Shown one piece after another: positions 106 through 58,457 of a stretch of DNA of 58,490 bases. Origin of the DNA: Bacteroidaceae bacterium (lineage in GTDB: Bacteria > Bacteroidota > Bacteroidia > Bacteroidales > Bacteroidaceae). The translations under genes and the position numbers were made by a program. Location of the stretch: contig JAFYNL010000025.1 in the NCBI GenBank assembly GCA_017548075.1, forward strand, positions 1 to 58,490. The letters run 5' to 3'. The notes under the pieces are model-generated. The model saw nothing but the letters and a program-made list of their open reading frames with translations. It was not told the DNA's origin and made no database searches. Position 1 is the stretch's first letter. Each line of letters begins with the position of its first letter.

Positions 106-142
106 TTTCGGTGGTGATGCATGCAGGTGTAAAGGCAATCAT

Positions 143-195
143 AACACGTTAAGTTCTCAAACACAACACGTTACGATTGCAAACGTAACACGTTA
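143..195 (+). repeat. 22-bp repeat array A (3 units)
   Basis: The core AACACGTTA occurs at 143, 165 and 187, exactly 22 bp apart. The linkers are of the AGTTCTCAAACAC and CGATTGCAAACGT type. It is followed by CGTCACTG (205-212), a trailer also seen after array H and, as CGACACTGG, after arrays E and G. It lies downstream of the SulP gene; any gene to the left is outside the window. Confidence 0.85.
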
Positions 196-244
196 AGTCT
201 GCCATCGTCACTGCCTGCGTTTGCAAATGTCGCTAAGGTCGGTT

Positions 245-5093: not shown

Positions 5094-6781
5094 TGAAACG
5101 CGTTCTCTTATCCGTTCTTGGATGCTTTAGCACCAAGGCGCGCTTTTTATGCGCGGTTGTCTGTTGTCTGTCGTCCGTTGTCGCTCTGCCTGCCGAGCTG
5201 AGCTTCAAAGTGAAGTGTAAGTACTTGAACCTGCCCATATCGCAGGAGGTGGAGCGTCGTCGTTTGACTTTTCAAGCGAAAGGAGTGGACGATCTGAGTG
5301 TTGTGGCCCGACTCTCGACTGAGCCTGATTATTGGGTATTTAAGGACATCTCGGCTTACAAGGGCAAGACGTTGACCATCACCTATGAAGGTTCTGAGGA
5401 AGCTCTTTCGAAGGTCTATCAGTCGGACACTATTCGAGATGCCTCCAAGATATATAAGGAGAAGTATCGTCCGCAGTTTCATTTCTCTTCTCGGCGTGGT
5501 TGGTTGAACGACCCGAATGGCTGTATTTGGCATGATGGCTTGTATCATCTTTATTATCAGCACAATCCATTCGAGCGCGAATGGGAGAATATGACTTGGG
5601 GACACGCAACGAGTCCAGACCTCTTGCATTGGACGGAACAGGCTCCAGTTCTCTTTCCTGACTCGCTTGGTACGATGTATAGCGGCTCTGCAGTCTTCGA
5701 TAAGGACAATACATCAGGCTTCGGCACGAAGAAAGTAGCGCCCCTTGTCTATGCCTATACTGCTGACAAAAGTGACAGAGAAGCCCAATGCATTGCTTAC
5801 AGCTTGGATGGAGGCATGACGCTCCACAAGTACGAAGGCAATCCTGTTATTGATTCGCACGATAAGTGGCAGACTCACGACACAAGAGACCCGCGATTGT
5901 TTTGGTTCGAGGCTGGAGGCTGGTGGGTTCTTGTCCTGAATGAGCGAAACGGACACAGTATCTATACTTCCGACAACCTCAAGGATTGGACTTATCAGAG
6001 CCACGTGAATGGCTTCTGGGAATGTCCTGACCTTTTCCCTTTGGCTGTTGACGGCAATCCAAACAACGTGAAATGGGTGATGTATGGGGCAAGCAATACC
6101 TATATGATAGGCAGTTTCGACGGCAAAGTCTTCACGCCTGTAAGCGGTAAACATCGTTTCTCGACAGGTGCCATCTATGCCGCTCAGACCTTCAACAACG
6201 TGCCTGATGGACGCAGAATACAGATAGGATGGGCCAACATCGACCATCGAGGAATGCCTTTCCGCGGGCAGATGTTGCTCCCGACTGAACTTACACTTCG
6301 CTCCACAAAAGAGGGCGTTCGTCTTGTAAGCAAGCCTATCAAGGAAGTTTCGTCTTTGTTGAAGCCGCTCTATACAAGTGAAAAGGCTTTGAGCGAGCAG
6401 GAGACCAACAAGGCTCTGCAACGTTATCAGAAGCAGGATTGCGTGCATCTTCGTGCCACACTCAACCTCACTTATGCCACAAGCGCAGGCTTAAAGCTTG
6501 ATGGACAAACGCTTGTTGACTATGACCTCAATCGCAATACCTTGAACGGCCAGTTCTATTCGCCGCAAGACCCCACGAGTCTTTCCCTTACGATGGACAT
6601 TTATGTGGACCGCACTTCTGTGGAAGTCTTCATCGACAACGGTTTGTATAGCTTCTCTATGGAGCGCAGGCGGGCAATAGGAACTCCCCAGAGACCCGTA
6701 ACCAAAGGCTTTGAGTTCTGGGGAGCAGATATTAACGTCAGCGACATTCAGTTAGATTCCGTCGAGAGCATCTGGGAGTAG
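5090..6781 (+). CDS. GH32 fructan beta-fructosidase (levanase/inulinase type), secreted
   Basis: The 563-residue product hydrolyses beta-fructosyl linkages in fructans or sucrose. Residues 1-35 form a signal peptide. A beta-sandwich of about 90 residues follows, then the five-bladed propeller. The three catalytic motifs are present: WLNDPNG (nucleophile D141), RDPRLF and WECPDLFPL (acid/base Glu). A C-terminal sandwich ends with DRTSVEVFIDNG, the usual GH32 C-terminal element. The start overlaps the NhaC stop (ATGA), so it is co-transcribed with two transporters; no fructose kinase or SusC/D genes are adjacent. The signal-peptide core (AVVCCLSSVV) is encoded by short-period repeat DNA at 5155-5183. 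Endo- and exo-acting GH32 cannot be separated here. Confidence 0.93.
   Translation: MMKRVLLSVLGCFSTKARFLCAVVCCLSSVVALPAELSFKVKCKYLNLPISQEVERRRLTFQAKGVDDLSVVARLSTEPDYWVFKDISAYKGKTLTITYEGSEEALSKVYQSDTIRDASKIYKEKYRPQFHFSSRRGWLNDPNGCIWHDGLYHLYYQHNPFEREWENMTWGHATSPDLLHWTEQAPVLFPDSLGTMYSGSAVFDKDNTSGFGTKKVAPLVYAYTADKSDREAQCIAYSLDGGMTLHKYEGNPVIDSHDKWQTHDTRDPRLFWFEAGGWWVLVLNERNGHSIYTSDNLKDWTYQSHVNGFWECPDLFPLAVDGNPNNVKWVMYGASNTYMIGSFDGKVFTPVSGKHRFSTGAIYAAQTFNNVPDGRRIQIGWANIDHRGMPFRGQMLLPTELTLRSTKEGVRLVSKPIKEVSSLLKPLYTSEKALSEQETNKALQRYQKQDCVHLRATLNLTYATSAGLKLDGQTLVDYDLNRNTLNGQFYSPQDPTSLSLTMDIYVDRTSVEVFIDNGLYSFSMERRRAIGTPQRPVTKGFEFWGADINVSDIQLDSVESIWE
5155..5183 (+). repeat. Short-period TTGTCTG repeat inside the GH32 signal peptide
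   Basis: GTTGTCTGTTGTC followed by TGTCGTCCGTTGTCG encodes the hydrophobic core of the signal peptide. The same motif encodes the signal-peptide core of the GH43 gene at 19226. Confidence 0.75.
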
Positions 6782-6787
6782 GACTCT

Positions 6788-7441
6788 TTATTGTTGCAGA
6801 GCAGAACTCCTGCGGCCACGAGCGAGAACCTTTCCCTCTGAGGCTATGCTGTCTGCGAGCTGCTCTCCTCCGCTACGGCTGAAGGGAACGTCGTAGTAGT
6901 AATCATAGTCCCATCCATAACGATCCTCGTATCCATAGATGTTTACATAAGGCGTCCAGTTGTAGTAGTCAGCAATCTTGCGCAGACGGAACGCGTTCCC
7001 AGAGCCTGAGAAGATGCCCGAAAAGTAGTCGTTGTTCATGCTATAGTTGCTGATTCTAACGTCGAGTTCGTGGTCGTAATCATAGGAAAGATAAACAACT
7101 CCGTTCTCTACAGACCAGCTGAACTTGTAGTATAGATACTCGTAAGGTCCGTACTCATAGTAATCAACCTGCGTTCCTCTGCCATAGCTCGCGCAAGAGT
7201 AGGCGGGGATGAACTCGATGCGGGAATCGTAGCAGTCGAAAGAATAGCGTCTTCCGCGGCCATCTATATAGTCGTAATACATTCCGAAGTCCCCTCTCCA
7301 TTGTCCCGAGAGAACCATCGACTGGTTGATATCCTCGATATCTTCGCAAGAAGAGAACGAGAACGCTGCCATCATGAAGATGAAAAAGAGGAAGCAATTT
7401 GCTCCGGCTTTCTCGAAGAAGTAAAAGATTGAACGTTTCAT
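6788..7441 (-). CDS. Tyr/Asp-rich putative lipoprotein of unknown function
   Basis: 217 residues with the start taken at 7441 (MKRSIFYFF) because it gives a signal peptide ending in the lipobox-like FSFSSC (Cys near residue 32) and sits 28 bp below a -7 box; the open frame continues 40 codons further upstream without a signal sequence. The mature part is rich in Tyr, Asp and Gly (for example YGWDYDYYYDVPF). It contains a segment, SGQWRGDFGMYYDY, that may begin a lipocalin-like small beta-barrel. I do not recognise a family. It is convergent with GH32, with only six bases between stop codons, and divergent from the GH43 operon. Array B lies upstream of its promoter. Confidence 0.7.
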   Translation of the reverse strand: MKRSIFYFFEKAGANCFLFFIFMMAAFSFSSCEDIEDINQSMVLSGQWRGDFGMYYDYIDGRGRRYSFDCYDSRIEFIPAYSCASYGRGTQVDYYEYGPYEYLYYKFSWSVENGVVYLSYDYDHELDVRISNYSMNNDYFSGIFSGSGNAFRLRKIADYYNWTPYVNIYGYEDRYGWDYDYYYDVPFSRSGGEQLADSIASEGKVLARGRRSSALQQ

Positions 7442-7469
7442 AGCTGTACTTTTTATCGTTTGTTTGATG

Positions 7470-7477
7470 CAAAGGTA
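7470..7477 (-). promoter_or_regulatory. -7 box of the Tyr-rich lipoprotein gene
   Basis: TACCTTTG on the minus strand, 28 bp before the chosen ATG. This supports the 7441 start, because a start further upstream would place the promoter inside the gene. Confidence 0.6.
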
Positions 7478-7561
7478 CGCGATATTCTGGAGTTCGAAAA
7501 GGGGAAAATGCGAACTTTTGCAGGGGAAATCCCTATCGCTTGCAGGGTAGTTCGCAAACAA

Positions 7562-7636
7562 CCCACGTTACGATTGCCAACATAACACGTTAACTTTGCC
7601 AACGTAACACGTTAAGTTTGCGATTTAACCACGTTA
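7562..7636 (+). repeat. 22-bp repeat array B (4 units)
   Basis: Cores at 7562 (CCCACGTTA), 7584, 7606 and 7628 (ACCACGTTA) are each 22 bp apart. The leader is TTGCAGGGTAGTTCGC. The array lies in the 313-bp divergent region 7442-7754, which otherwise holds only the two promoters. Polarity matches array D, upstream of a leftward gene. Confidence 0.85.
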
Positions 7637-7714
7637 ACTTTGCCAATTAGCCGTGCCTGGTTTCTCGAGAAGCAACTTTTAGGCTAAAAAGTTCTCAGTT
7701 TGCAAAACTTTTCG

Positions 7715-7722
7715 TAACTTTG
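7715..7722 (+). promoter_or_regulatory. -7 box of the GH43 to dehydrogenase operon
   Basis: TAACTTTG lies 32 bp before the ATG at 7755. No clear TTTG is seen at the usual distance upstream. Confidence 0.6.
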
Positions 7723-7754
7723 ACCAGCAATCGTTATAATAATAGAAGATTACA

Positions 7755-9959
7755 ATGAAAAAAAGTGTAGTTTCAGCAGTTCTGATGGCTTTCCTGGCCT
7801 TGGCTGCAAATGCGCAGAATCCTTTTGTACAGACTTGGTTCACGAGCGACCCTGCTCCTATGGTGCATAACGGCAGGATGTATGTTTATACGGGGCATGA
7901 TGAGGACGGAGCCGACTTCTTCTGGATGCAGGAATGGCGCGTCTATTCGACTGAAGATATGGTGAATTGGCAGGACCACGGCTCGCCTCTTGCTCTCGAG
8001 AGCTTCTCTTGGGCAGACGACAGGGCTTGGGCTTCGCAGACAGTTGAGCGGAACGGAAAGTTCTATTGGTACATCTGTGCCCACAGCAATATCTCGAAAG
8101 GAATGGCTATTGGCGTGGCTGTCAGCGACTCACCTACAGGTCCGTTCAAGGACGCAATTGGTAAGCCTCTCTTCGAGAACGGCTCGTGGGACCACATCGA
8201 CCCCACAGTTCTCATCGACGACGATGGTCAGGCTTGGCTGATGTGGGGCAATCCGCAATGTTATTATCTGAAGTTGAACGAGGATATGATTTCCTATAGT
8301 GGCGAACTTGGTCGTCTGGATATGACTGAGGAGGCTTTTGGCGGTCCCATGATGAGCAAGCGTGAAAAGGGAAAGCAATACAAGGATTCGTATGTGGAAG
8401 GACCTTGGCTGACCAAACGGAATGGCGTCTATCAGTTGCTTTATGCAGCTGGAGGAGTGCCTGAACACATCAGTTATAGTACGGCTCCCTCGCCAACTGG
8501 CCCATGGAAATATGCTGGTCAAATTATGCCTCTGTGCGATACGAAGTCCTTCACCAACCATTGTGGCGTGGCCGATTACAAGGGGCATAGCTACTTCTTC
8601 TATCACTCGGGCAAACTTCCCAAGGGTGGAGGCTTTGGGCGAAGTGTTTGTGTGGAGGAGTTTAAGTACAATGCCGACGGAAGCTTCCCGACAATCATGC
8701 CTACAGACGAAGGCGTGAAGCCCGTCGAGACCTTCAATCCTTACAGGAAGGTTGAGGCTGAGACAATGGCTTTTTCTCGTGGAGTGAAGACCGAACAAAA
8801 TGACGAAATCGGGGTTTACGTAAGTGATATCCATAATGGGGACTTTATCAAGCTGCAGAATGTTAAGTTCGATGGAAACGAGACCAAGCAGTTCACGGCA
8901 AGAGTGGCAAGCGGATTGAGAGGCGGACAGATTGAGGTTCGCTTGGATAGCCTGCATGGAGCTTTGGTGGCTCGTTTGGAAGTTCCTGGAACAGGAGGTT
9001 GGGAGAAGTGGCAGACGCTTTCTGTTGACTTCCTGCAAAAGGCTACGGGCACTCACGACCTCTACTTCGCTTTCACAGGTCGCAAAGGTCCGAAACTCTT
9101 CAACTTCGACTGGTGGCAGATTGAAGGCTTGAAGTCTCTAGTGGTAGAGGATGGCGGTTGGGGCGACTATAAAGCCATCATGAAGGAGGAAGCAGGCCTT
9201 GAAGCTCATACTGTCTTCGTTCCGCAAGACCTCTCGGCCTTCAGCAGGAAGAATCCTCTGCCCGTGCTTGTGTGGGGAAATGGTGCTTGCACGAACTCTC
9301 CATGGGAGCATTTCAAGTTCCTCAACGAGATTGCCTCTCACGGTTATCTTGTTGTGGCGACTGGTTTCATTCCGATGGAGGAGAAACCTTATCGCGGGCC
9401 GATGTCCACCACAGAGCAACAGATTGAGTCCATCGATTGGGCCATCAGTCAGAATGCCGACCCCAGTTCACCTTATTATAATAAGATAGATGTGAAGAAC
9501 ATCTGCGCCTCAGGAATGTCTTGTGGCGGTTTGCAGACGCTCTATAATTGTGCCGACTCTCGTATCAAGACTTTGATGATTTGCAATAGCGGACTCTTCA
9601 AGCAGAGCAATCGTGCTCAGGCTATGGGCGGAATGCCGATGCCTGAGAAAGCAAAGCTGAATGAGATTCATACACCAGTCATCTACATCCTTGGCGGCAA
9701 GGAGGATATCGCCTATGAGAACGGAATGGACGACTTCCACAAAATCAATCATGTTCCTGCCTGTGCAGCCAACTATCCTGTAGGTCACGGAGGAACCTAC
9801 CGTCAACCTCATGGCGGAGAGTTTACTGTGGTTGCTCTCGCTTGGCTTGATTGGCAGCTGAAGGGCGACAAGCAAGCAGCCAAGATGTTTAAGGGCAAGG
9901 ATTGTCTGCTCTCGAAACGCGAAGGCTGGACTATCGAGAAGAATGCGAAAATGAAATGA
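7755..9959 (+). CDS. Multidomain GH43 glycosidase with CBM6-like domain and C-terminal alpha/beta-hydrolase
   Basis: 734 residues with a signal peptide ending at AANA/Q (residue 20). Residues 21-320 form a GH43 five-bladed propeller with the expected acidic triad: base D32 (TSDPAP), D149 (HIDPTVL) and acid E215 (VEGPW). This predicts arabinofuranosidase or xylosidase activity. A CBM6-like beta-sandwich follows (about 325-455: RKVEAETMAFSRGVKT to FNFDWWQIEG). The last 280 residues are an alpha/beta-hydrolase with nucleophile elbow GMSCGG (S589) and late His candidates (VGHGGTYRQPHG). This could be an esterase that removes acyl groups from the same polysaccharide. It is the first gene of the 7755-14292 operon. 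Substrate and esterase specificity are inference. Confidence 0.88.
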   Translation: MKKSVVSAVLMAFLALAANAQNPFVQTWFTSDPAPMVHNGRMYVYTGHDEDGADFFWMQEWRVYSTEDMVNWQDHGSPLALESFSWADDRAWASQTVERNGKFYWYICAHSNISKGMAIGVAVSDSPTGPFKDAIGKPLFENGSWDHIDPTVLIDDDGQAWLMWGNPQCYYLKLNEDMISYSGELGRLDMTEEAFGGPMMSKREKGKQYKDSYVEGPWLTKRNGVYQLLYAAGGVPEHISYSTAPSPTGPWKYAGQIMPLCDTKSFTNHCGVADYKGHSYFFYHSGKLPKGGGFGRSVCVEEFKYNADGSFPTIMPTDEGVKPVETFNPYRKVEAETMAFSRGVKTEQNDEIGVYVSDIHNGDFIKLQNVKFDGNETKQFTARVASGLRGGQIEVRLDSLHGALVARLEVPGTGGWEKWQTLSVDFLQKATGTHDLYFAFTGRKGPKLFNFDWWQIEGLKSLVVEDGGWGDYKAIMKEEAGLEAHTVFVPQDLSAFSRKNPLPVLVWGNGACTNSPWEHFKFLNEIASHGYLVVATGFIPMEEKPYRGPMSTTEQQIESIDWAISQNADPSSPYYNKIDVKNICASGMSCGGLQTLYNCADSRIKTLMICNSGLFKQSNRAQAMGGMPMPEKAKLNEIHTPVIYILGGKEDIAYENGMDDFHKINHVPACAANYPVGHGGTYRQPHGGEFTVVALAWLDWQLKGDKQAAKMFKGKDCLLSKREGWTIEKNAKMK

Positions 9960-11404
9960 TAAAAAGAATGAAAAAGACCTTTGCTCTCCTTACTCTATTT
10001 GTGTCGATGTCGTTGCTTCCAGCACTGGCTCAGCCTCAAGACCACAAGATGCCAATGCCCGACCTGAACAAAGTCAATATGCCCTTGTTCCAGACCAAAT
10101 ACACGGCCGACCCTTCGCCTTTGGTGGTGGGCGATACGCTCTTCCTATATACTTCGCACGACGCTTCGCCAGAGGATATTCCCGACGAGAACGAACGTAG
10201 CTCTGCAGGTTTCTTTATGTACGACTGGCTGCTTTGGAGTACTACCGATATGGTCAATTGGACTGAGCACGGGGCCGTGGCTTCTTTGAAGGACTTTTCT
10301 TGGCGCAGTCGCGAGAACGGGGCTTGGGCCATTCAAACCGTTGAAAGAGGCGGGAAGTTCTACCTCTATGCTCCCCTTCATGGGCACGGGATTGGCGTGC
10401 TGGTAAGCGATTCGCCTTATGGACCTTTCCGCGATCCTTTGGGCGAGCCTCTTGTTTGGCAAAGGGAACATTGGAACGATATTGACCCTACCGTCTTTAC
10501 GGACGACGACGGGCAGGCCTATATGTATTGGGGTAATCCTCACACTTACTGGTGCAAGCTGAACAAGGACATGATTTCCGTGGACGGCTCTATCACTCAA
10601 CTGCCCCACATCGAGCACTATCAAGAAGGGCCGTGGTTCTACAAACGAGACGGACATTACTATCTTGCTTATGCAACTACTTGCTGCCCCGAGGCTTTGG
10701 GCTATGCCATGAGCGAAAGTCCCACAGGTCCTTGGGAAGCGAAGGGTTACATCATGCGTCCCACGCAACGAGACAGAGGCAATCATCCCGGCATTTGCGA
10801 CTTCAAGGGACACTCCTATATCTTCGGTCAGGATTACGACCTGATGCACCTCGACACCTATATTCATCATGAACGTCGAAGCGTTAGTGCCAGCGAGATT
10901 GTTTATCTCGAGGACGGCACCATTCCAGAGATTCCTTATTGGCTCGACCAGAAACCTTTGCAACAACTTCAATGGCTCAATCCCTACACGCGAGTTGAGG
11001 CAGAGACGATGGCGTGGGGCAGGGGGGTGAAGAGCGCCAAGATGGGTATTCCCAATACGGGTGTGGTGAAGGATATGCCTGAATCGACGGGCAAGAAGAA
11101 TATGTATATTTACGACCTTGACGAGGGCGAGTATATTCGTCTGCGAGGCGTTGACTTCGGTTCTGGAGCTAAGCAGTTCTGCATCTCGGCAGCCTCCACT
11201 GGCTCTTGCACGATTACCCTTCGTCTCGACTCTGAGAATGGCCTCGTGGTTGGAGTTGCCAAGATTGCTTCCACAGGCTCGCTCGAAGCCTATAAGCTCT
11301 TCTCCGCTAAGGTAAAAGGTGCCAATAGCGTCCACGACCTCTACCTTTGCTTTGGCGATGTCAAAGGCGAAGTGCATTTGGACTACTGGCAGTTTAAAAA
11401 ATAA
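9956..11404 (+). CDS. Secreted GH43 glycosidase with CBM6-like domain
   Basis: 482 residues. The start at 9956 overlaps the previous stop (ATGA) and gives a signal peptide (KKTFALLTLFVSMSLLPALA); an ATG four codons later is also possible. The GH43 propeller carries D52 (TADPSP), D177 (DIDPTVF) and E224 (YQEGPW), followed by a CBM6-like domain from about residue 350 (RVEAETMAWGRGVKSAK). Overall similarity to the upstream GH43 (shared STxDMVNWxxHG, PTGPW and YRVEAETMA-like segments) suggests an old tandem duplication in which this copy never gained, or has lost, the esterase domain. It probably acts on arabinose or xylose side chains with its neighbour. Confidence 0.88.
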   Translation: MIKRMKKTFALLTLFVSMSLLPALAQPQDHKMPMPDLNKVNMPLFQTKYTADPSPLVVGDTLFLYTSHDASPEDIPDENERSSAGFFMYDWLLWSTTDMVNWTEHGAVASLKDFSWRSRENGAWAIQTVERGGKFYLYAPLHGHGIGVLVSDSPYGPFRDPLGEPLVWQREHWNDIDPTVFTDDDGQAYMYWGNPHTYWCKLNKDMISVDGSITQLPHIEHYQEGPWFYKRDGHYYLAYATTCCPEALGYAMSESPTGPWEAKGYIMRPTQRDRGNHPGICDFKGHSYIFGQDYDLMHLDTYIHHERRSVSASEIVYLEDGTIPEIPYWLDQKPLQQLQWLNPYTRVEAETMAWGRGVKSAKMGIPNTGVVKDMPESTGKKNMYIYDLDEGEYIRLRGVDFGSGAKQFCISAASTGSCTITLRLDSENGLVVGVAKIASTGSLEAYKLFSAKVKGANSVHDLYLCFGDVKGEVHLDYWQFKK

Positions 11405-11408
11405 GTAT

Positions 11409-12359
11409 ATGGTTTACAACGAAATAGGAAAGACAGGACTGCGCGTCTCGAACCTTAGCTTTGGGGCTTCCTCGCTGGGTGGCGTGTTTCATGGCATTCG
11501 TGAGGACGAGGGCATTCGAGCCGTGCATGTGGCCATCGACAATGGCATCAATTTCATCGACGTTTCGCCCTACTACGGCCATCTGAAGGCAGAGACTGTG
11601 CTGGGCAAGGCGCTTAAAGAGATTCCTCGCGATAAGTACTATCTCTCGACAAAGGTGGGACGATACGGTAAGGATGGAATCAACACATGGGACTATTCTG
11701 CCAAGCGAGCTACGGAGAGCGTCTATGAGAGCATGGAACGCTTGAATGTGGACTATATCGACCTGATTAATGTTCACGATATTGAGTTCCAAGCCAGTAT
11801 GGAAGGCGGTCTGCAGAAGGTTGTCGACGAGACGTTGCCTGCCCTTGTAGCCCTGAGAGAGAAAGGTGTTGTGGGACATGTGGGCATTACCGACCTACAG
11901 CCTGAGAACCTGAAGTGGGTTGTGGAGCATTCCGAGCCAGGAACGGTGGAGAGCATCCTCAACTTCTGCCACTATTGCCTGAATGATACGCTGCTGACCG
12001 ATTATCTCGACTTCTTTGAGCAGCATGGTGTTGGCATCATCAATGCTTCGCCACTTGCTATGGGATTGCTTTCCGAGCGAGGCACTCCCGACTGGCATCC
12101 TGCTCCCGAGCCTTTGAAAGAGGCTTGTGCTCGGGCTGCTGCCTATTGCAAGGAGCAAGGCTACCCAATAGAAAAGCTTGCCGTGCAGTTCTCTACAAGC
12201 CTGAATCCTCGCATCGCTACAACGCTCTTCAGTAGTGCCAATCCTGCTAATGTCCTGAAGAATATCGGCTACGCGAACGAGCCTATGGATGAGGCTTTGG
12301 TGGCAGAGGTCCAGGCTATCATAGGCGACCAAATGTTTGTAAGATGGAAAAACTCATAA
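11409..12359 (+). CDS. Aldo/keto reductase (L-galactose/L-fucose dehydrogenase-like)
   Basis: 316 residues with the start at ATG 11409, four bases after the preceding stop; a longer frame upstream reads through the GH43 gene and is rejected. The AKR catalytic tetrad is present: D51 and Y56 (DVSPYYGH), K82 (STKVG) and H123 (NVHD). The N-terminal YNEIGKTGLRVSNLSFGASS and the sequence overall resemble the aldose 1-dehydrogenase branch that oxidises sugars to lactones. No signal peptide, so cytoplasmic. It is followed, with a 16-bp overlap, by a lactonase-like amidohydrolase, which supports oxidation of a free sugar to a lactone. The sugar (L-fucose, L-galactose or L-arabinose) cannot be decided. 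Confidence 0.88.
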   Translation: MVYNEIGKTGLRVSNLSFGASSLGGVFHGIREDEGIRAVHVAIDNGINFIDVSPYYGHLKAETVLGKALKEIPRDKYYLSTKVGRYGKDGINTWDYSAKRATESVYESMERLNVDYIDLINVHDIEFQASMEGGLQKVVDETLPALVALREKGVVGHVGITDLQPENLKWVVEHSEPGTVESILNFCHYCLNDTLLTDYLDFFEQHGVGIINASPLAMGLLSERGTPDWHPAPEPLKEACARAAAYCKEQGYPIEKLAVQFSTSLNPRIATTLFSSANPANVLKNIGYANEPMDEALVAEVQAIIGDQMFVRWKNS

Positions 12360-14426: not shown

Positions 14427-14737
14427 TTTTTCGGCAATTATTTTTATAAAATATAAAAATTTATATAGCAAAGAAGCAAAGTGAACAATCCGAACAAAGC
14501 GAACAAAACGAACAACAATTTTTGAGAGAAAAGTAAATCGCTATCTATTTATTATATTAATAGTATTATGTAATTGTTGATTATATAATATAAGCAAACT
14601 CGCTTGCCTCTTTATTTTCCGTGTTCGGTTTGTTCGGTCTGGCAAATCGATATCATACCCTTGCCTCCATAAAATGCCAAATTTCTCGATGAAATGGGCA
14701 ATTTTTTGCATATAACTGCAGGGTGAAATTCAAACGT

Positions 14738-14790
14738 AACACGTTAAAATCGCCATCGTAACACGTTAAGTTTGGCAACATAACACGTTA
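14738..14790 (+). repeat. 22-bp repeat array C (3 units)
   Basis: AACACGTTA at 14738, 14760 and 14782, exact 22-bp period; linkers AAATCGCCATCGT and AGTTTGGCAACAT. Lies 105 bp upstream of the GH31 start and 335 bp from the orphan leftward -7 box. Confidence 0.88.
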
Positions 14791-14839
14791 AATTTGCCCA
14801 CATCACGAGGGATGTTTAGAGATAAAATGCGCAAAATTG

Positions 14840-19225: not shown

Positions 19226-22646
<3,421 letters not shown>

Positions 22647-25760: not shown

Positions 25761-26303
25761 TTAGTAGTTCTCGGCCTTGATTTGGAAGTAGCTCTGCGGA
25801 TGGTTGCAAGCGGGGCAAACCTCGGGAGCCTGCTTCCCGATGACGATGTGGCCGCAGTTGGAGCATTGCCAGATGACATCACCTTCGCGAGAGAAGACCA
25901 CAGCATCCTGAATGTTTTTGAGCAGCTTGCGGTAGCGTTCCTCATGATGCTTTTCGATAGCGCCTACCAACTCGAACTTGTCGGCAATCTCGTCGAAGCC
26001 CTCCTCGCGAGCCTCCTTTGCCATGCGGGCATACATGTCTGTCCATTCGAAATTCTCTCCATTGGCAGCATCAGCCAGATTCGTAACTGTATCGCTCACA
26101 CTGCCGCCGTTCAGGTACTTGTACCACAGCTTGGCGTGTTCCTTCTCGTTTGCAGCCGTTTCCTCGAAGATAGAGGCAATCTGCACATATCCGTCCTTCT
26201 TGGCCTTCGAAGCGAAATATGTGTATTTGTTGCGCGCCATGCTCTCACCGGCAAAAGCTTCCATGAGGTTCTTCTCAGTCTTTGTTCCTTTCAGATCTTT
26301 CAT
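25761..26303 (-). CDS. rbr: Rubrerythrin
   Basis: 180 residues. The N-terminal ferritin-like di-iron domain carries the expected Glu residues ([44 protein letters not shown]). The C-terminal rubredoxin domain has two Cys pairs (WQCSNCGH and CPACNHPQ). It reduces hydrogen peroxide in the cytoplasm of anaerobes. Promoter: TTTG-20-TACCTTTG at 26361-26392 (minus). The promoter is the left part of the composite element at 26358-26774. Confidence 0.96.
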
Positions 26304-26392: not shown

Positions 26393-26699
26393 TTACCAGG
26401 CGACTTTTTTCAATAAAATTGAAAATAATTTGATGCTGGTAGTAGGGATTTTGCATTGTAACATTGTAACATGTTACTTAAAAAAACAGACACCCCTATA
26501 ATTGGAAAAGGAATTCTATTATTTTATAATAATAGACTATATTTGACTAGGTATGTGTCACTATTTTATTGTAACATGTTACAACGTTACAATGCTTCTG
26601 GTGCGGGTGGTGGTCAATACCAAATTTCTCGATGAAATGGGCGATTATTGCACTTTTCTGGGCGCGCTGGCCAACATCTGCAAGGTAAAATGCAAACGT

Positions 26700-26774
26700 A
26701 ACACGTTAACTTTACCAACGTAACACGTTACGTTTGCCATCATAACACGTTACGTTTGGCATCATAACACGCCG
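26700..26774 (+). repeat. 22-bp repeat array D (4 units)
   Basis: AACACGTTA at 26700, 26722 and 26744, then AACACGCCG at 26766; exact 22-bp spacing with linkers ACTTTACCAACGT, CGTTTGCCATCAT and CGTTTGGCATCAT. Confidence 0.9.
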
Positions 26775-26786
26775 CATTTGGCAACG

Positions 26787-26823
26787 AAAAAGGAGGAAAA
26801 CGGCGTTTTCGTTCCCCTCCTTT
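26787..26823 (-). terminator. Terminator of the two-discoidin protein gene
   Basis: On the minus strand AAAGGAGG ... GAAAAC-GCC-GTTTTC ... CTCCTTTTT forms a two-step hairpin ending in a T run, 34 bp past the stop at 26857. Confidence 0.7.
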
Positions 26824-26856: not shown

Positions 26857-27771
26857 TTATTTGAAAAGCTTGATTTCGCTAAGTTGAAGACGAGTACCGC
26901 CAGTCATACGGATAAATTCGAAGCGATAGTAGCGATATGGATTCTGATTGGCGGTTTTGAAGCGATATTCTTGCTCGTTTTCGTCACGAAGTCGGCGGTT
27001 GAACTTCTGTTCGTCGAGTGTAGTCCACGATTTTTGGTCGTTAGAACCCGAAACTTTCCATGTAATGGGGTTGCGATCGGGGTAGTTGTGGGTATCATCG
27101 CCCGTCACAAAGCTATATTCAGATACAATTGCCTGCTCTCCTGCATCGAGAACGATGTTGTAGGGCATCTCTCGGGGCTCGTCGAGGCACCATTTTGTGT
27201 AAAAAAGGCCGTCGGAAGCCATTGCCGCACTTTCCTTGCCATCGCGACCAGAACCGCTCACAAAGGTTGCCTTGATGGCTGCCTTGGCTGTCTTGTAGAG
27301 GTTGATTTCGCTGAGCTGAATGCGAGTGCTGCCAGCCATCCTGATGAACTCGAAGCGGAAATAGCGGAACTTGCCATTGAAAGTCGGCTTGAAGCGATAC
27401 TCCTCTTGGTCCTCGTCGCCCATACTGAAGTTGTTCTTCTGGTCGTCGAGAAGCGTCCAGTTCTCCTTGTCGTTTGAGCCTGAAACCTTCCAAGTGATGG
27501 GATTGCGGTCGGGATAGGAACTTGTGTCGTCGCCCGTTACAAAGCCATATTCAGCAATGTTGGTCTCTGTGCCTGCATCGAGGATAATCATGTAAGGCAA
27601 CTGACGACGGCTATCAATGCACCATTTCGTGTCGTAGCTCCCGTCGCAAACCATAGCCGGTCCCTCGTCGTCATTTGGGCCTGTGCCCTTCACCAAAGTG
27701 GTTTTGATGGTCTGAGCCGATATCTCGCTGCATGCAAAAAGGAGCATTAAAACAAATGAAATATGTTTCAT
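26857..27771 (-). CDS. Secreted protein of two tandem F5/8 type C (discoidin) domains
   Basis: 304 residues: a signal peptide (1-19) and two repeats of about 130 residues (about 22-158 and 165-304). Both contain the segment YPDRNPITWKVSGSND and end in IRMxGxTRxQLSEIxLxK, so they come from a recent internal duplication. Discoidin domains bind carbohydrates. There is no catalytic domain, so this may be a soluble or surface sugar-binding protein. It is divergent from the GH92 mannosidase across a heptamer-repeat promoter, which suggests joint regulation and a role with alpha-mannosides. Confidence 0.85.
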   Translation of the reverse strand: MKHISFVLMLLFACSEISAQTIKTTLVKGTGPNDDEGPAMVCDGSYDTKWCIDSRRQLPYMIILDAGTETNIAEYGFVTGDDTSSYPDRNPITWKVSGSNDKENWTLLDDQKNNFSMGDEDQEEYRFKPTFNGKFRYFRFEFIRMAGSTRIQLSEINLYKTAKAAIKATFVSGSGRDGKESAAMASDGLFYTKWCLDEPREMPYNIVLDAGEQAIVSEYSFVTGDDTHNYPDRNPITWKVSGSNDQKSWTTLDEQKFNRRLRDENEQEYRFKTANQNPYRYYRFEFIRMTGGTRLQLSEIKLFK

Positions 27772-27807: not shown

Positions 27808-27814
27808 CGAAAAA

Positions 27815-27842
27815 GTTTAGAGTTTAGAGTTTAGAGTTTAGA
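27815..27842. repeat. 4 x heptamer GTTTAGA between two divergent promoters
   Basis: Four perfect copies. Seven bases separate the array from the leftward -7 box and nine from the rightward -7 box (27852-27859). Copy number, unit size and spacing match the array at 2012-2039. Confidence 0.9.
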
Positions 27843-27851
27843 GAAATTTCG

Positions 27852-35072: not shown

Positions 35073-35120
35073 CGAAAAGTTGAGTAAAATGCAAAATAAA
35101 ACTGAGTTTTTCTCAAACAT

Positions 35121-35173
35121 AACACGTTAAGTTCCCCAACGTAACACGTTACGATTGCAATCATAACACGTTA
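35121..35173 (+). repeat. 22-bp repeat array E (3 units)
   Basis: AACACGTTA at 35121, 35143 and 35165. The trailer CGACACTGGGGTTGTT is the same as beside array G (there inverted). Lies in the 334-bp divergent gap 35022-35355 between alkaline phosphatase and PadR; the rest of the gap holds the promoters and the PadR palindrome. Confidence 0.88.
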
Positions 35174-35286
35174 AGTTTGCCAACGACACTGGGGTTGTTC
35201 GAAACCTTAACTGCAGATGTGTTTCAGTTTAGCGTTTCAACTCACCAATTTTAATGCGTTTTATCTTAAAGATTGTTAAATTTCAG

Positions 35287-40056: not shown

Positions 40057-40144
40057 CTGTTTTTTACGCTTCACGCCAAGAATTCCGCGTTATATTTTAT
40101 TAAAATGTTTTTCATTAAACACAACGTGCCATGTTTGTCAACTA

Positions 40145-40197
40145 GACACGTTAAGTTGGCAAAGTTAACACGTTATGATTGCAATCGTAACACGTTA
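40145..40197 (+). repeat. 22-bp repeat array F (3 units)
   Basis: GACACGTTA at 40145, AACACGTTA at 40167 and 40189, 22 bp apart. It lies 88 bp upstream of the DUF3472 -7 box and next to the terminator of the small peptide gene. Confidence 0.82.
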
Positions 40198-40220
40198 TGT
40201 TTGCCGATGTAACTGCATAT

Positions 40221-48439: not shown

Positions 48440-48486
48440 GGTACTCTAGTGTCATCCTCAAACAACCCCAGTGTCGTTTGCAAAGT

Positions 48487-48517
48487 TAACGTGTTACGTT
48501 TGCAAAGTTAACGTGTG
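48487..48517 (-). repeat. 22-bp repeat array G (2 units, inverted)
   Basis: TAACGTGTT at 48487 and TAACGTGTG at 48509, the reverse complement of the core, 22 bp apart. The conserved trailer, here inverted (AACCCCAGTGTCG), lies to the left (48463-48477). Part of the 337-bp gap 48440-48776, which also holds a terminator and the promoter of the 48777 gene. Confidence 0.8.
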
Positions 48518-48574
48518 ATGTTGACCTTTTTAACTGCAGTTGTTTTTTAGCGAGGCATACCTTATTTATATAAT

Positions 48575-58125: not shown

Positions 58126-58214
58126 CGTTTGTCGTTTTTCGTTTGAAGTTTAAAGTTTATTGTTTACGGTTTAGCGGTTTATGTGTTTTTCTCTCGTGTG
58201 GCGTGAGCAATCGA

Positions 58215-58245
58215 AACTTGTTAAATTGCGCACTTTAACTCGTTA
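58215..58245 (+). repeat. 22-bp repeat array H (2 degenerate units)
   Basis: AACTTGTTA at 58215 and AACTCGTTA at 58237, 22 bp apart, followed by the trailer CGTCACTGG (58256-58264) shared with array A. Weaker than the other arrays but the period and trailer agree. Confidence 0.55.
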
Positions 58246-58426
58246 AGATTGGATTCGTCACTGGTCATCCGGATTGACACTGCAAAGGTACGACGGTTTT
58301 ATTGCGGTCTACGAATTTTTGAGCAACTTTTTTACATGTTTTTCAAAAAAAATATCTATAAGGTTCACGTGCGCGCGGAGGTAATATATTTTGTCGTGAA
58401 AATTCCATTTCCGAGCGGGGGCGCAG

Positions 58427-58457
58427 TCATTAAGTCATTAAGTCATTAGTCATTAAG
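58427..58457. repeat. Tandem TCATTAAG units
   Basis: TCATTAAG, TCATTAAG, TCATTAG and TCATTAAG in succession near the window end; same class of short-period repeat as at 2012 and 53456. Confidence 0.7.

Follow-up and report, generated by a model that had tools for sequence, protein, structure and literature searches.

The known systems nearest to the 22-bp repeat arrays described here are repetitive extragenic palindromes (REPs) and bacterial interspersed mosaic elements (BIMEs), the BrickBuilt repeat of Porphyromonas gingivalis, uptake sequences, and prokaryotic satellites. REPs and BIMEs of enterobacteria and pseudomonads lie at gene ends, and the DNA uptake sequence (DUS) of Neisseria and the uptake signal sequence (USS) of Haemophilus are each a single motif of 9–12 bp that is often found within genes. 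BIMEs contain regularly spaced REPs (PMC2817692), and REPs have hypothesised roles in supercoiling, in termination and in the stability of mRNA (PMC3733652), in the parts of these papers that we draw on. The arrays studied here came to light in a 58,490-nucleotide contig (JAFYNL010000025.1) of the Bacteroidaceae bacterium assembly GCA_017548075.1; we refer to this whole stretch of DNA as the window.

BrickBuilt, according to the part of its description used here, has a 23-nt unit, 19 copies in one strain, a length of 84–991 nt and terminal inverted repeats like the ends of insertion sequences (PMC4596501). The survey of prokaryotic satellites covered 119 bacterial and 142 archaeal genomes and required four or more repeats; its main text contains no 'Bacteroid' term, and the portion considered describes no period-22 class, symmetry or spacing (PMC6749651). 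Our analysis confirms the arrays of the window and adds three properties to what a preliminary description of this DNA had reported, namely that the arrays are regularly spaced, that their core sequence is this species' version of a unit that differs among relatives, and that their position is able to outlast their sequence. These short repeat arrays in a gut bacterium and its relatives hint at an unfamiliar form of chromosome punctuation.

Results

Arrays in 22-bp register recur far beyond chance

The window is contig C17 of a genome that we call G000, a 2.66-Mb draft in 66 contigs that is 88% complete. We sampled 791.5 kb of it (~30% of the genome), of which the first part, 444 kb, consists of the window and 20 fetched stretches, and genes were called with our own simple caller based on open reading frames and codon bias. 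The genomes used for comparison, 139 from the genus and 251 from the family in 30 genera, are drafts assembled from metagenomes, with small samples in most relatives. An element profile was built from 33 arrays in the first 444 kb and then tested on the remaining DNA with a cut-off of E<1e-3; the best E on reversed DNA was 0.55 for the 444 kb and 0.16 for the 791.5 kb. We also used a general period-22 detector, whose thresholds were chosen after the data had been seen.

The preliminary description had claimed eight arrays, A to H, starting at 143, 7562, 14738, 26700, 35121, 40145, 48487 (inverted) and 58215, and all eight are found there. The core AACACGTTA has 17 exact copies in the window against 0.32 expected, a number reached in 0 of 100 shuffles, and the core-N13-core pattern with up to 3 mismatches occurs 16 times against 0.03 expected. 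Degenerate cores are also present in arrays B, D, F and G, and array H is the weakest of the eight, with two cores that carry 3 mismatches together. Genome-wide, G000 has 213 exact pairs of cores at 22-bp spacing (102 forward, 111 reverse) and 0 in a reversed-pattern control, so that the pairs are far commoner than composition predicts. The claim that the arrays avoid genes also holds: by midpoint, 94 of the 97 period-22 arrays found by the general detector in G000 are intergenic, in DNA that is 88% coding, as are 40 of 40 in the relative G091. The profile finds 57 elements in the first 444 kb and 94 in the 791.5 kb, which extrapolates to about 316 in the genome, and 174 of the 175 exact copies of AACACGTTA in the 791.5 kb fall inside these elements.

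Elements are regularly spaced along the chromosome

The 49 gaps between neighbouring elements in the first 444 kb of G000 have a mean of 7.9 kb and a coefficient of variation (CV) of 0.37, and 0 of them are under 3.5 kb. Random intergenic slots in the same DNA give a CV of 0.78–0.86 and 14.5–17 gaps under 3.5 kb. In a held-out check, the 35 gaps with at least one end in later-fetched DNA have a mean of 7.2 kb and a CV of 0.384, with one below 3.5 kb. Taken together, the 94 elements in 791.5 kb leave 84 gaps with a mean of 7.62 kb and a CV of 0.379, only one of which is below 3.5 kb (the minimum, 3467 bp). Class-matched, length-weighted and element-corrected nulls give a CV of 0.78–0.83 and 21.6–24.5 gaps under 3.5 kb. 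No CV among the 3 x 2000 simulated sets is below 0.557, and the lowest value per set of 2000 is 0.557–0.608 for the class-matched and length-weighted nulls. All three nulls fall short of the observed regularity, and we reject the idea that it is an artefact of the positions of intergenic slots.

Hard-core models give a CV of 0.54 with a 3.5-kb core, 0.43 with 4.5 kb and 0.36 with 5.5 kb (where fewer gaps could be placed). Since a pure 3.5-kb hard core gives so high a CV, the repulsion must be softer and wider, and a core of 4.5–5.5 kb fits better. Pair distances up to 30 kb show no clear further peak that would indicate long-range periodicity beyond the exclusion of neighbours.

With the general detector, ten genus genomes for which a null was computed have 198 gaps, of which 11 are shorter than 3.5 kb; the summed nulls predict 61.8. 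The individual counts are 3/84 in G000 (smallest 2805 bp), 4/37 in G091 (15.2 expected), 0/28 in G049, 1/10 in G015, 0/9 in G016, 0/8 in G024, 3/8 in G051, 0/7 in G090, 0/4 in G099 and 0/3 in G011. The CV is significantly low in G000 (P 0.000) and in four of the nine relatives among them: G091 (0.000), G016 (0.002), G049 (0.021) and G015 (0.02). Short stretches searched with the profile only, and having no null, have no gaps under 3.5 kb in G057 (0/2), G087 (0/2) and G084 (0/1). A separate observation is that locus L117 carries four GC-rich palindromic period-22 arrays of the GTCGCACCACGGTGCGACAGGC type within 6 kb (6263-11838), so close packing does exist in some relatives.

Position can outlast sequence between species

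We compared 61 gene slots that are syntenic between G000 and G091, using profile E-values computed per single slot, which makes the search lax (one flagged slot, in G053, lay outside the length limit). Arrays occupy 7 slots in both genomes, 0 in G000 only, 4 in G091 only and 50 in neither, giving a Fisher P of 5e-5 on the 35 slots of at least 50 bp, an approximate value, since a slot is made longer by the array in it. In the 7 shared slots the arrays lie at a similar distance from the gene end, and at least 5 of the pairs differ in their unit, three of them as TTAACACGTTAA versus CGCCGCACGCGG. The four slots occupied in G091 only measure 2, -16, 3 and 13 bp in G000. In 14 slots common to G000 and four other relatives, neither genome has an array. 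The slot beside the ABC-F gene is compact in several species, and in G091, G051, G027, G024 and G049 it holds arrays that differ from one another. The ABC-F protein of G000 is nearest, in named records, to those of RUI392 and RUG10906 (96% identity) and then UBA4372 (88%); these nearest homologues come from uncultured Bacteroidaceae and Prevotellaceae, many of them ruminant-derived according to the record titles. In slot g7/g8, loci L089 (G090) and L095 (G124) have a ~10-bp CTATAG-type repeat where some relatives have period-22 arrays.

A second species pair, the sisters G024 and G049, shares 26.4 kb at 90.7% identity, and the four arrays inside this stretch are at the same places in both genomes. 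Two aligned pairs of arrays, in slot 9.8 (inside the stretch) and at C4 13.3 (on contig C4), carry a 22-bp gap. The test for concerted change used 3 of the 6 alignable pairs and left aside three that are gapped or truncated; the three ungapped pairs used are 76, 88 and 73% identical, against 89–99% in the flanks (gaps aside). In 2 of the 3, differences recur at the same position of the unit (P 0.0006; 0 of 5000). The third, array 20.5, has a paired change from AACTAAGCGTG..CACGCTTAG to AACTAGGCGTG..CACGCCTAG that keeps a hairpin with a T-run. Thus, with position conserved in two species pairs and units changing in concert in some arrays, the position of an array can outlast its sequence.

Relatives carry period-22 arrays of other sequence

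Exact pairs of AACACGTTA occur in 17 of the 139 genus genomes, with 51 in G091. AACACGTTA is this species' version, and relatives carry period-22 dyad arrays of other sequence: G091, G053, G057, G084 and G087 also have arrays of other units, often uniform within an array, including TTAA-CACG-TTAA, CCG-CACG-CGG, TCGA-CACG-TCGA, TTCA-CACG-TGAA and more. One core is dominant in G000, and there are many unit sequences within G091 and within G049. Within the genus, 115 of 139 genomes contain three CACG motifs at 22-bp spacing, as do 117 of the 251 from the family, spread over 23 of 30 genera; these counts are not a clean prevalence because the reversed pattern, which we read as other period-22 arrays, is equally or more frequent in some genomes (e.g., G113 and G235). 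Among tandem repeats of at least 15 bp, period 22 is dominant in G000 (84 arrays versus 15 for the next period) and the commonest in G091 (36 arrays); in G012, period-22 tandem repeats are absent from the 20 kb sampled.

The preliminary description had also considered a global regulator. A sequence-specific regulator of AACACGTTA is rejected as a general principle, given that arrays of other units hold the same slots in G091; within G000, where one core dominates, such a regulator may act. Two further repeat types were seen. G049 has, in addition to its CACG-type arrays, a second period-22 family without CACG, made of GGTTAACC-like palindromes (L193 400-496; L203 17891-17995 and 19571-19641). 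Another Bacteroidaceae genus (L232 and L239 of G305; also G169) has 22-bp arrays in which a palindrome of the AAACGTGCACGTTT type is conserved and the letters separating its copies vary; these arrays resemble a repeat with short variable spacers.

Anatomy and placement of the element

Alignment of 46 arrays from the first 444 kb shows conservation from -38 to +37 around the cores, as a mirror image, with AAAC at -27..-24 against GTTT at +23..+26 and G at -38 against C at +37. The usual element is ~130 bp long and quasi-palindromic. It comprises three TAACACGTTA cores in 22-bp steps, flanked by a single altered core to the left (ACTGCAGTTA or ACCCCAGTTA) and another to the right (TAACTGCAGT or ACACTGGGGT), and short A/T tracts. 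The TGCAGG leader and CACTGG trailer of the preliminary description turn out to be mostly the next 22-bp steps, with altered cores ACTGCAGTTA, TAACTGCAGT and ACACTGGGGT. Among the 94 elements, cores in register with up to 2 mismatches number three in 56, two in 17, four in 7 and one in 14.

Many units have a linker that is close to a palindrome in its own right (CGTTTGCAAACG, CGATTGCAATCG), so that dyads come every 11 bp. The symmetric form TAACNNGTTA-N12-TAACNNGTTA occurs at 323 places in G000. Dyad symmetry of period-22 consensus units (n=233) averages 0.638 versus 0.547 when shuffled, and at least 8 of 11 positions are symmetric in 33% versus 2%; it is also raised at periods 21 and 44, and little at 12–18. 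The 92 elements with two called neighbours occupy 29 of 61 slots between convergent genes, 20 of 64 between divergent genes and 43 of 328 between tandem genes. Among the tandem cases the element is nearer the upstream stop in 38 of 43 and is on the strand of the genes in 20 of 43, i.e., it is strand-neutral. In addition, three places in G000 (C13 24540 and 63646, C15 60216) share ~160–205 bp at 85–87%, partly beyond the array, and a larger dispersed repeat may accompany some arrays.

Table 1. Elements of the window as delimited by the profile
Element	Coordinates	Strand	Description and setting	Profile E
A	109..232	+	three TAACACGTTA-type cores at 22 bp and altered outer cores; 13 bp from stop of - gene 245-1978	1.7e-29
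B	7545..7671	+	between divergent genes; variant unit AAGTTTGCGATTTAACCACGTTA, also at three other places	3.4e-29
C	14703..14823	+	tandem + genes, upstream of GH31 gene (Pfam)	8.1e-29
D	26661..26787	+	tandem - genes; 70 bp from stop of F5/8-type-C gene 26857-27771; on the other side, 358 bp from start of rubrerythrin gene 25761-26303	1.4e-28
E	35090..35210	+	between - alkaline phosphatase gene and + PadR/PspC genes	2.6e-30
F	40113..40219	+	tandem - genes	7.1e-25
G	48450..48534	- (opposite orientation)	tandem + genes, 11 bp past a stop	5.6e-21
H	58195..58267	+	degenerate, cores AACTTGTTA, AACTCGTTA; after stop of + gene	4.8e-5

Between the rubrerythrin gene and element D, the window also has a 41-nt imperfect inverted repeat, GCATTGTAACATTGTAACATGTTAC ... 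GTAACATGTTACAACGTTACAATGC (26453-26595). Short heptamer or octamer tandem repeats lie at 2009-2043, 27814-27843, 75-105, 5156-5182, 19243-19268 and 58425-58457; the types found at these six places are AAACTTT x5, AGTTTAG x4.3, ATGTCAC, GTTGTCT, TTGTCTG and AGTCATTA. Element D has no blastn match among 50,697 phage and 72,556 plasmid records, and an origin from phage or plasmid is rejected; Rfam covariance models have 0 matches at the gathering threshold in the window, and a known structured RNA is likewise rejected.

Discussion

The feature that is kept is an architecture: a dyad unit every 22 bp with dyads 11 bp apart, ~130 bp long in G000, present once per ~7.6 kb and rarely twice within 3.5 kb. 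We favour, tentatively and with a probability of roughly 0.36, a reading in which the arrays are punctuation at operon borders that may be read as DNA architecture, either double-stranded or locally extruded, in analogy to BIMEs. An abundant DNA-organising protein, such as a nucleoid protein or a topoisomerase like gyrase, would bind or wrap the phased dyads at the ends of transcription units. One site would serve several kb on each side, so that a second site nearby would not be gained or kept, and it would then be selection, rather than insertion bias, that sets the spacing. As long as period and symmetry are kept, the units would be free to drift, both through changes made in concert within an array and through one array type taking the place of another. 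In their 130-bp length and their preference for convergent borders the arrays are reminiscent of BIMEs and of gyrase sites. The suggestion of the preliminary description that two-turn periodicity reflects a role at the level of DNA fits with the exact 22-bp register, the lack of strand preference relative to genes and the raised dyad symmetry. A broader version, possible and on balance doubtful, is that some Bacteroidaceae chromosomes have a ruler free of sequence, in which it is the 22-bp architecture of phased-dyad arrays that is recognised. The arrays would be kept at operon borders, roughly one to a topological domain, while their letters are rewritten between species; this would be a bacterial counterpart of satellite or boundary DNA.

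Several results weigh against the architectural reading. Single sites are dispensable: of the 11 arrays that G091 has in shared slots, G000 lacks 4; slot g3/g4, occupied in G000, is without an array in all 7 named relatives that have it; and G113 has no array in a slot that it shares with G000 and that holds one there. Regularity is not universal. The CV is not significant in G024 (P 0.079), G090 (0.25), G099 (0.31) and G011 (0.23), G051 is irregular (8 gaps, CV 0.84, P 0.62), 2 of 4 gaps in G053 are under 3.5 kb (profile only, a short stretch that has no null), the general detector finds its three short gaps in G000 itself, and regular spacing is also missing from G305 (7 gaps) and G140 (6 gaps), which belong to another genus. 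Period and symmetry also vary, since period 21 is commoner in G105 (21 bp: 4, 22 bp: 1), period 21 is about as frequent as 22 in the surroundings of the ABC-F gene across 80 named records (10 vs 8, 22 vs 22), and neither G011 (5 units) nor G090 (6 units) has the excess of symmetry. Concerted change is absent in array 20.5 (P 0.92). Sequence-specific copying in G000 is suggested by its uniform cores and by two of its arrays that are identical over at least 52 bp, and from this identical stretch we conclude that some copying occurs. Finally, the soft exclusion could stem from insertion immunity.

This last point leads to the main rival for the exclusion zone, namely that the arrays are non-autonomous mobile elements, like REPs or miniature inverted-repeat transposable elements (MITEs), whose transposase avoids targets near an existing copy, the exclusion zone being the footprint of target immunity. 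Target immunity is a property of Mu, Tn7 and Tn3, and the ends of Mu and Tn7 also carry 22-bp transposase sites. An exclusion of ~3.5–5 kb, a standard element of ~130 bp with symmetrically conserved ends, the occurrence of occupied and compact empty slots among species and the identical stretch in two G000 arrays would all fit with mobility. However, the 94 elements include no near-identical whole copies, the top whole-length pairs being 87–91% identical over 108–128 bp (best 15 of 2264 matching pairs), and terminal repeat ends or target duplications are not definable: the element ends are symmetric (-38 to +37) but resemble further array units, and exact insertion ends were unobtainable from empty sites, whose sequences are too diverged. 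Exclusion is seen as well in G091, where units differ widely, and the positions of G000 arrays are shared with G091 in 7 of 7 cases. The Y1 transposase (PF01797) is present in 36 of 139 genus genomes, with 0 in G000 (88% complete); other transposases were not surveyed. G091, G051, G024, G049 and G090 are not among the 36, and the array-bearing G016, G027 and G080 are. We reject a REP system with its REP-associated tyrosine transposase (RAYT), the cognate Y1 transposase not being found in G000. The spreading selfish repeat of the preliminary description thus receives little support, given also the positions common to G024 and G049, although gain and loss of arrays among species does occur. We regard mobility with target immunity as weakened and rather doubtful.

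The arrays could instead be bidirectional transcription terminators or stabilisers of mRNA 3' ends, forming hairpins at gene ends. They are close to upstream stops (38/43) and frequent in convergent slots (29/61), their fold z means are -2.2 and -2.4 on the two strands versus -0.88 in 112 control intergenic pieces, and some have a hairpin with a T-run, as in slot C15 63/64 (G000, G091) and in array 20.5 (G024/G049). But T5 is near only 33 of 188 array ends (17.6%), compared with 127 of 1092 control pieces (11.6%), so that a U-tract is missing from most arrays; arrays also occupy 20 of 64 divergent slots, and the exclusion zone is left unexplained. Terminator function is plausible at some loci; as an account of the arrays in general we consider it unlikely. 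An RNA hairpin on one strand was rejected as well, since on the CACG strand G.T and A.C departures occur in similar numbers (19 vs 27, G091 pairs 1-3) and the strand relative to genes is neutral.

A mutational by-product, in which slippage-prone tandem duplications are tolerated only between genes, would agree with the 22-bp gaps of slots 9.8 and C4 13.3 and with units changing in concert, but it is already disfavoured by the spacing, and the dominance of period 22 in G000, the dyad symmetry and the positional conservation also make it improbable. Uptake motifs are a single short sequence, whereas the present arrays lie almost exclusively between genes and have units of differing sequence within a single genome (G091, G049). 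Biased DNA uptake with recombination, as for DUS and USS, is the least probable source of even, orientation-neutral spacing, for although the two orientations are near equal in G000 (102 and 111 pairs) and even spacing of uptake sequences has been reported (Karlin et al., cited in PMC1939737), the part of PMC1939737 relied on here finds them less even than the compaction idea would need.

Neither transcription-factor binding nor ordinary transposition readily accounts for regularly spaced intergenic elements that can stay in place while their sequence changes, and searches for sequence motifs would miss them because the period, not the letters, is conserved. If the arrays mark topological or nucleoid domains, the domain structure of uncultured bacteria would be readable from sequence, and what sets the size of bacterial supercoiling domains could be tested directly. 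If the spacing is instead the footprint of target immunity, it would provide a genome-scale measure of the range of immunity in nature.

Among tandem protein sites, the ends of Mu and Tn7 and the iterons of plasmids are, like the arrays here, spaced at ~20–22 bp in helical phase, but they are directional, occur in small numbers and adjoin the gene for the protein that binds them. We found no description of period-22 dyad arrays in Bacteroidales in the open-licence literature, and no repeat that unites a fixed period with variable sequence and even spacing is described in the parts consulted of PMC4596501, PMC1939737, PMC6749651, PMC5771137, PMC12306157, PMC3733652 and PMC2817692. Prokaryotic satellites resemble the arrays in being short tandem repeats, some of them intergenic, as far as the cited portion of the survey goes (PMC6749651). 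DUS and USS are alike in their reportedly even spacing (Karlin, cited and qualified in the part of PMC1939737 used), their neutral orientation and, sometimes, their location at gene ends; they differ in that they are not arrays and do not vary in sequence within a genome, whereas G091 and G049 have many units. BrickBuilt, a minisatellite MITE, is also from Bacteroidales and intergenic, with a similar unit length and a leader and tail in the sections considered (PMC4596501), while the present arrays have a 22-bp unit, an extrapolated number of about 316 per genome, mostly three cores and no such ends that we could find. The closest likeness in form is to REPs and BIMEs, as the arrays are high-copy, intergenic (94/97) and palindromic, with raised symmetry. 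The flank profile has no conserved GTAG that would match a GTAG/CGTC tag beside the palindrome (no dedicated scan was made), and no Y1 transposase was found in G000. In contrast to REPs and BIMEs, the arrays described here are built of a head-to-tail 22-bp unit, are locked in period rather than in sequence, and are evenly spaced along the chromosome in several species.
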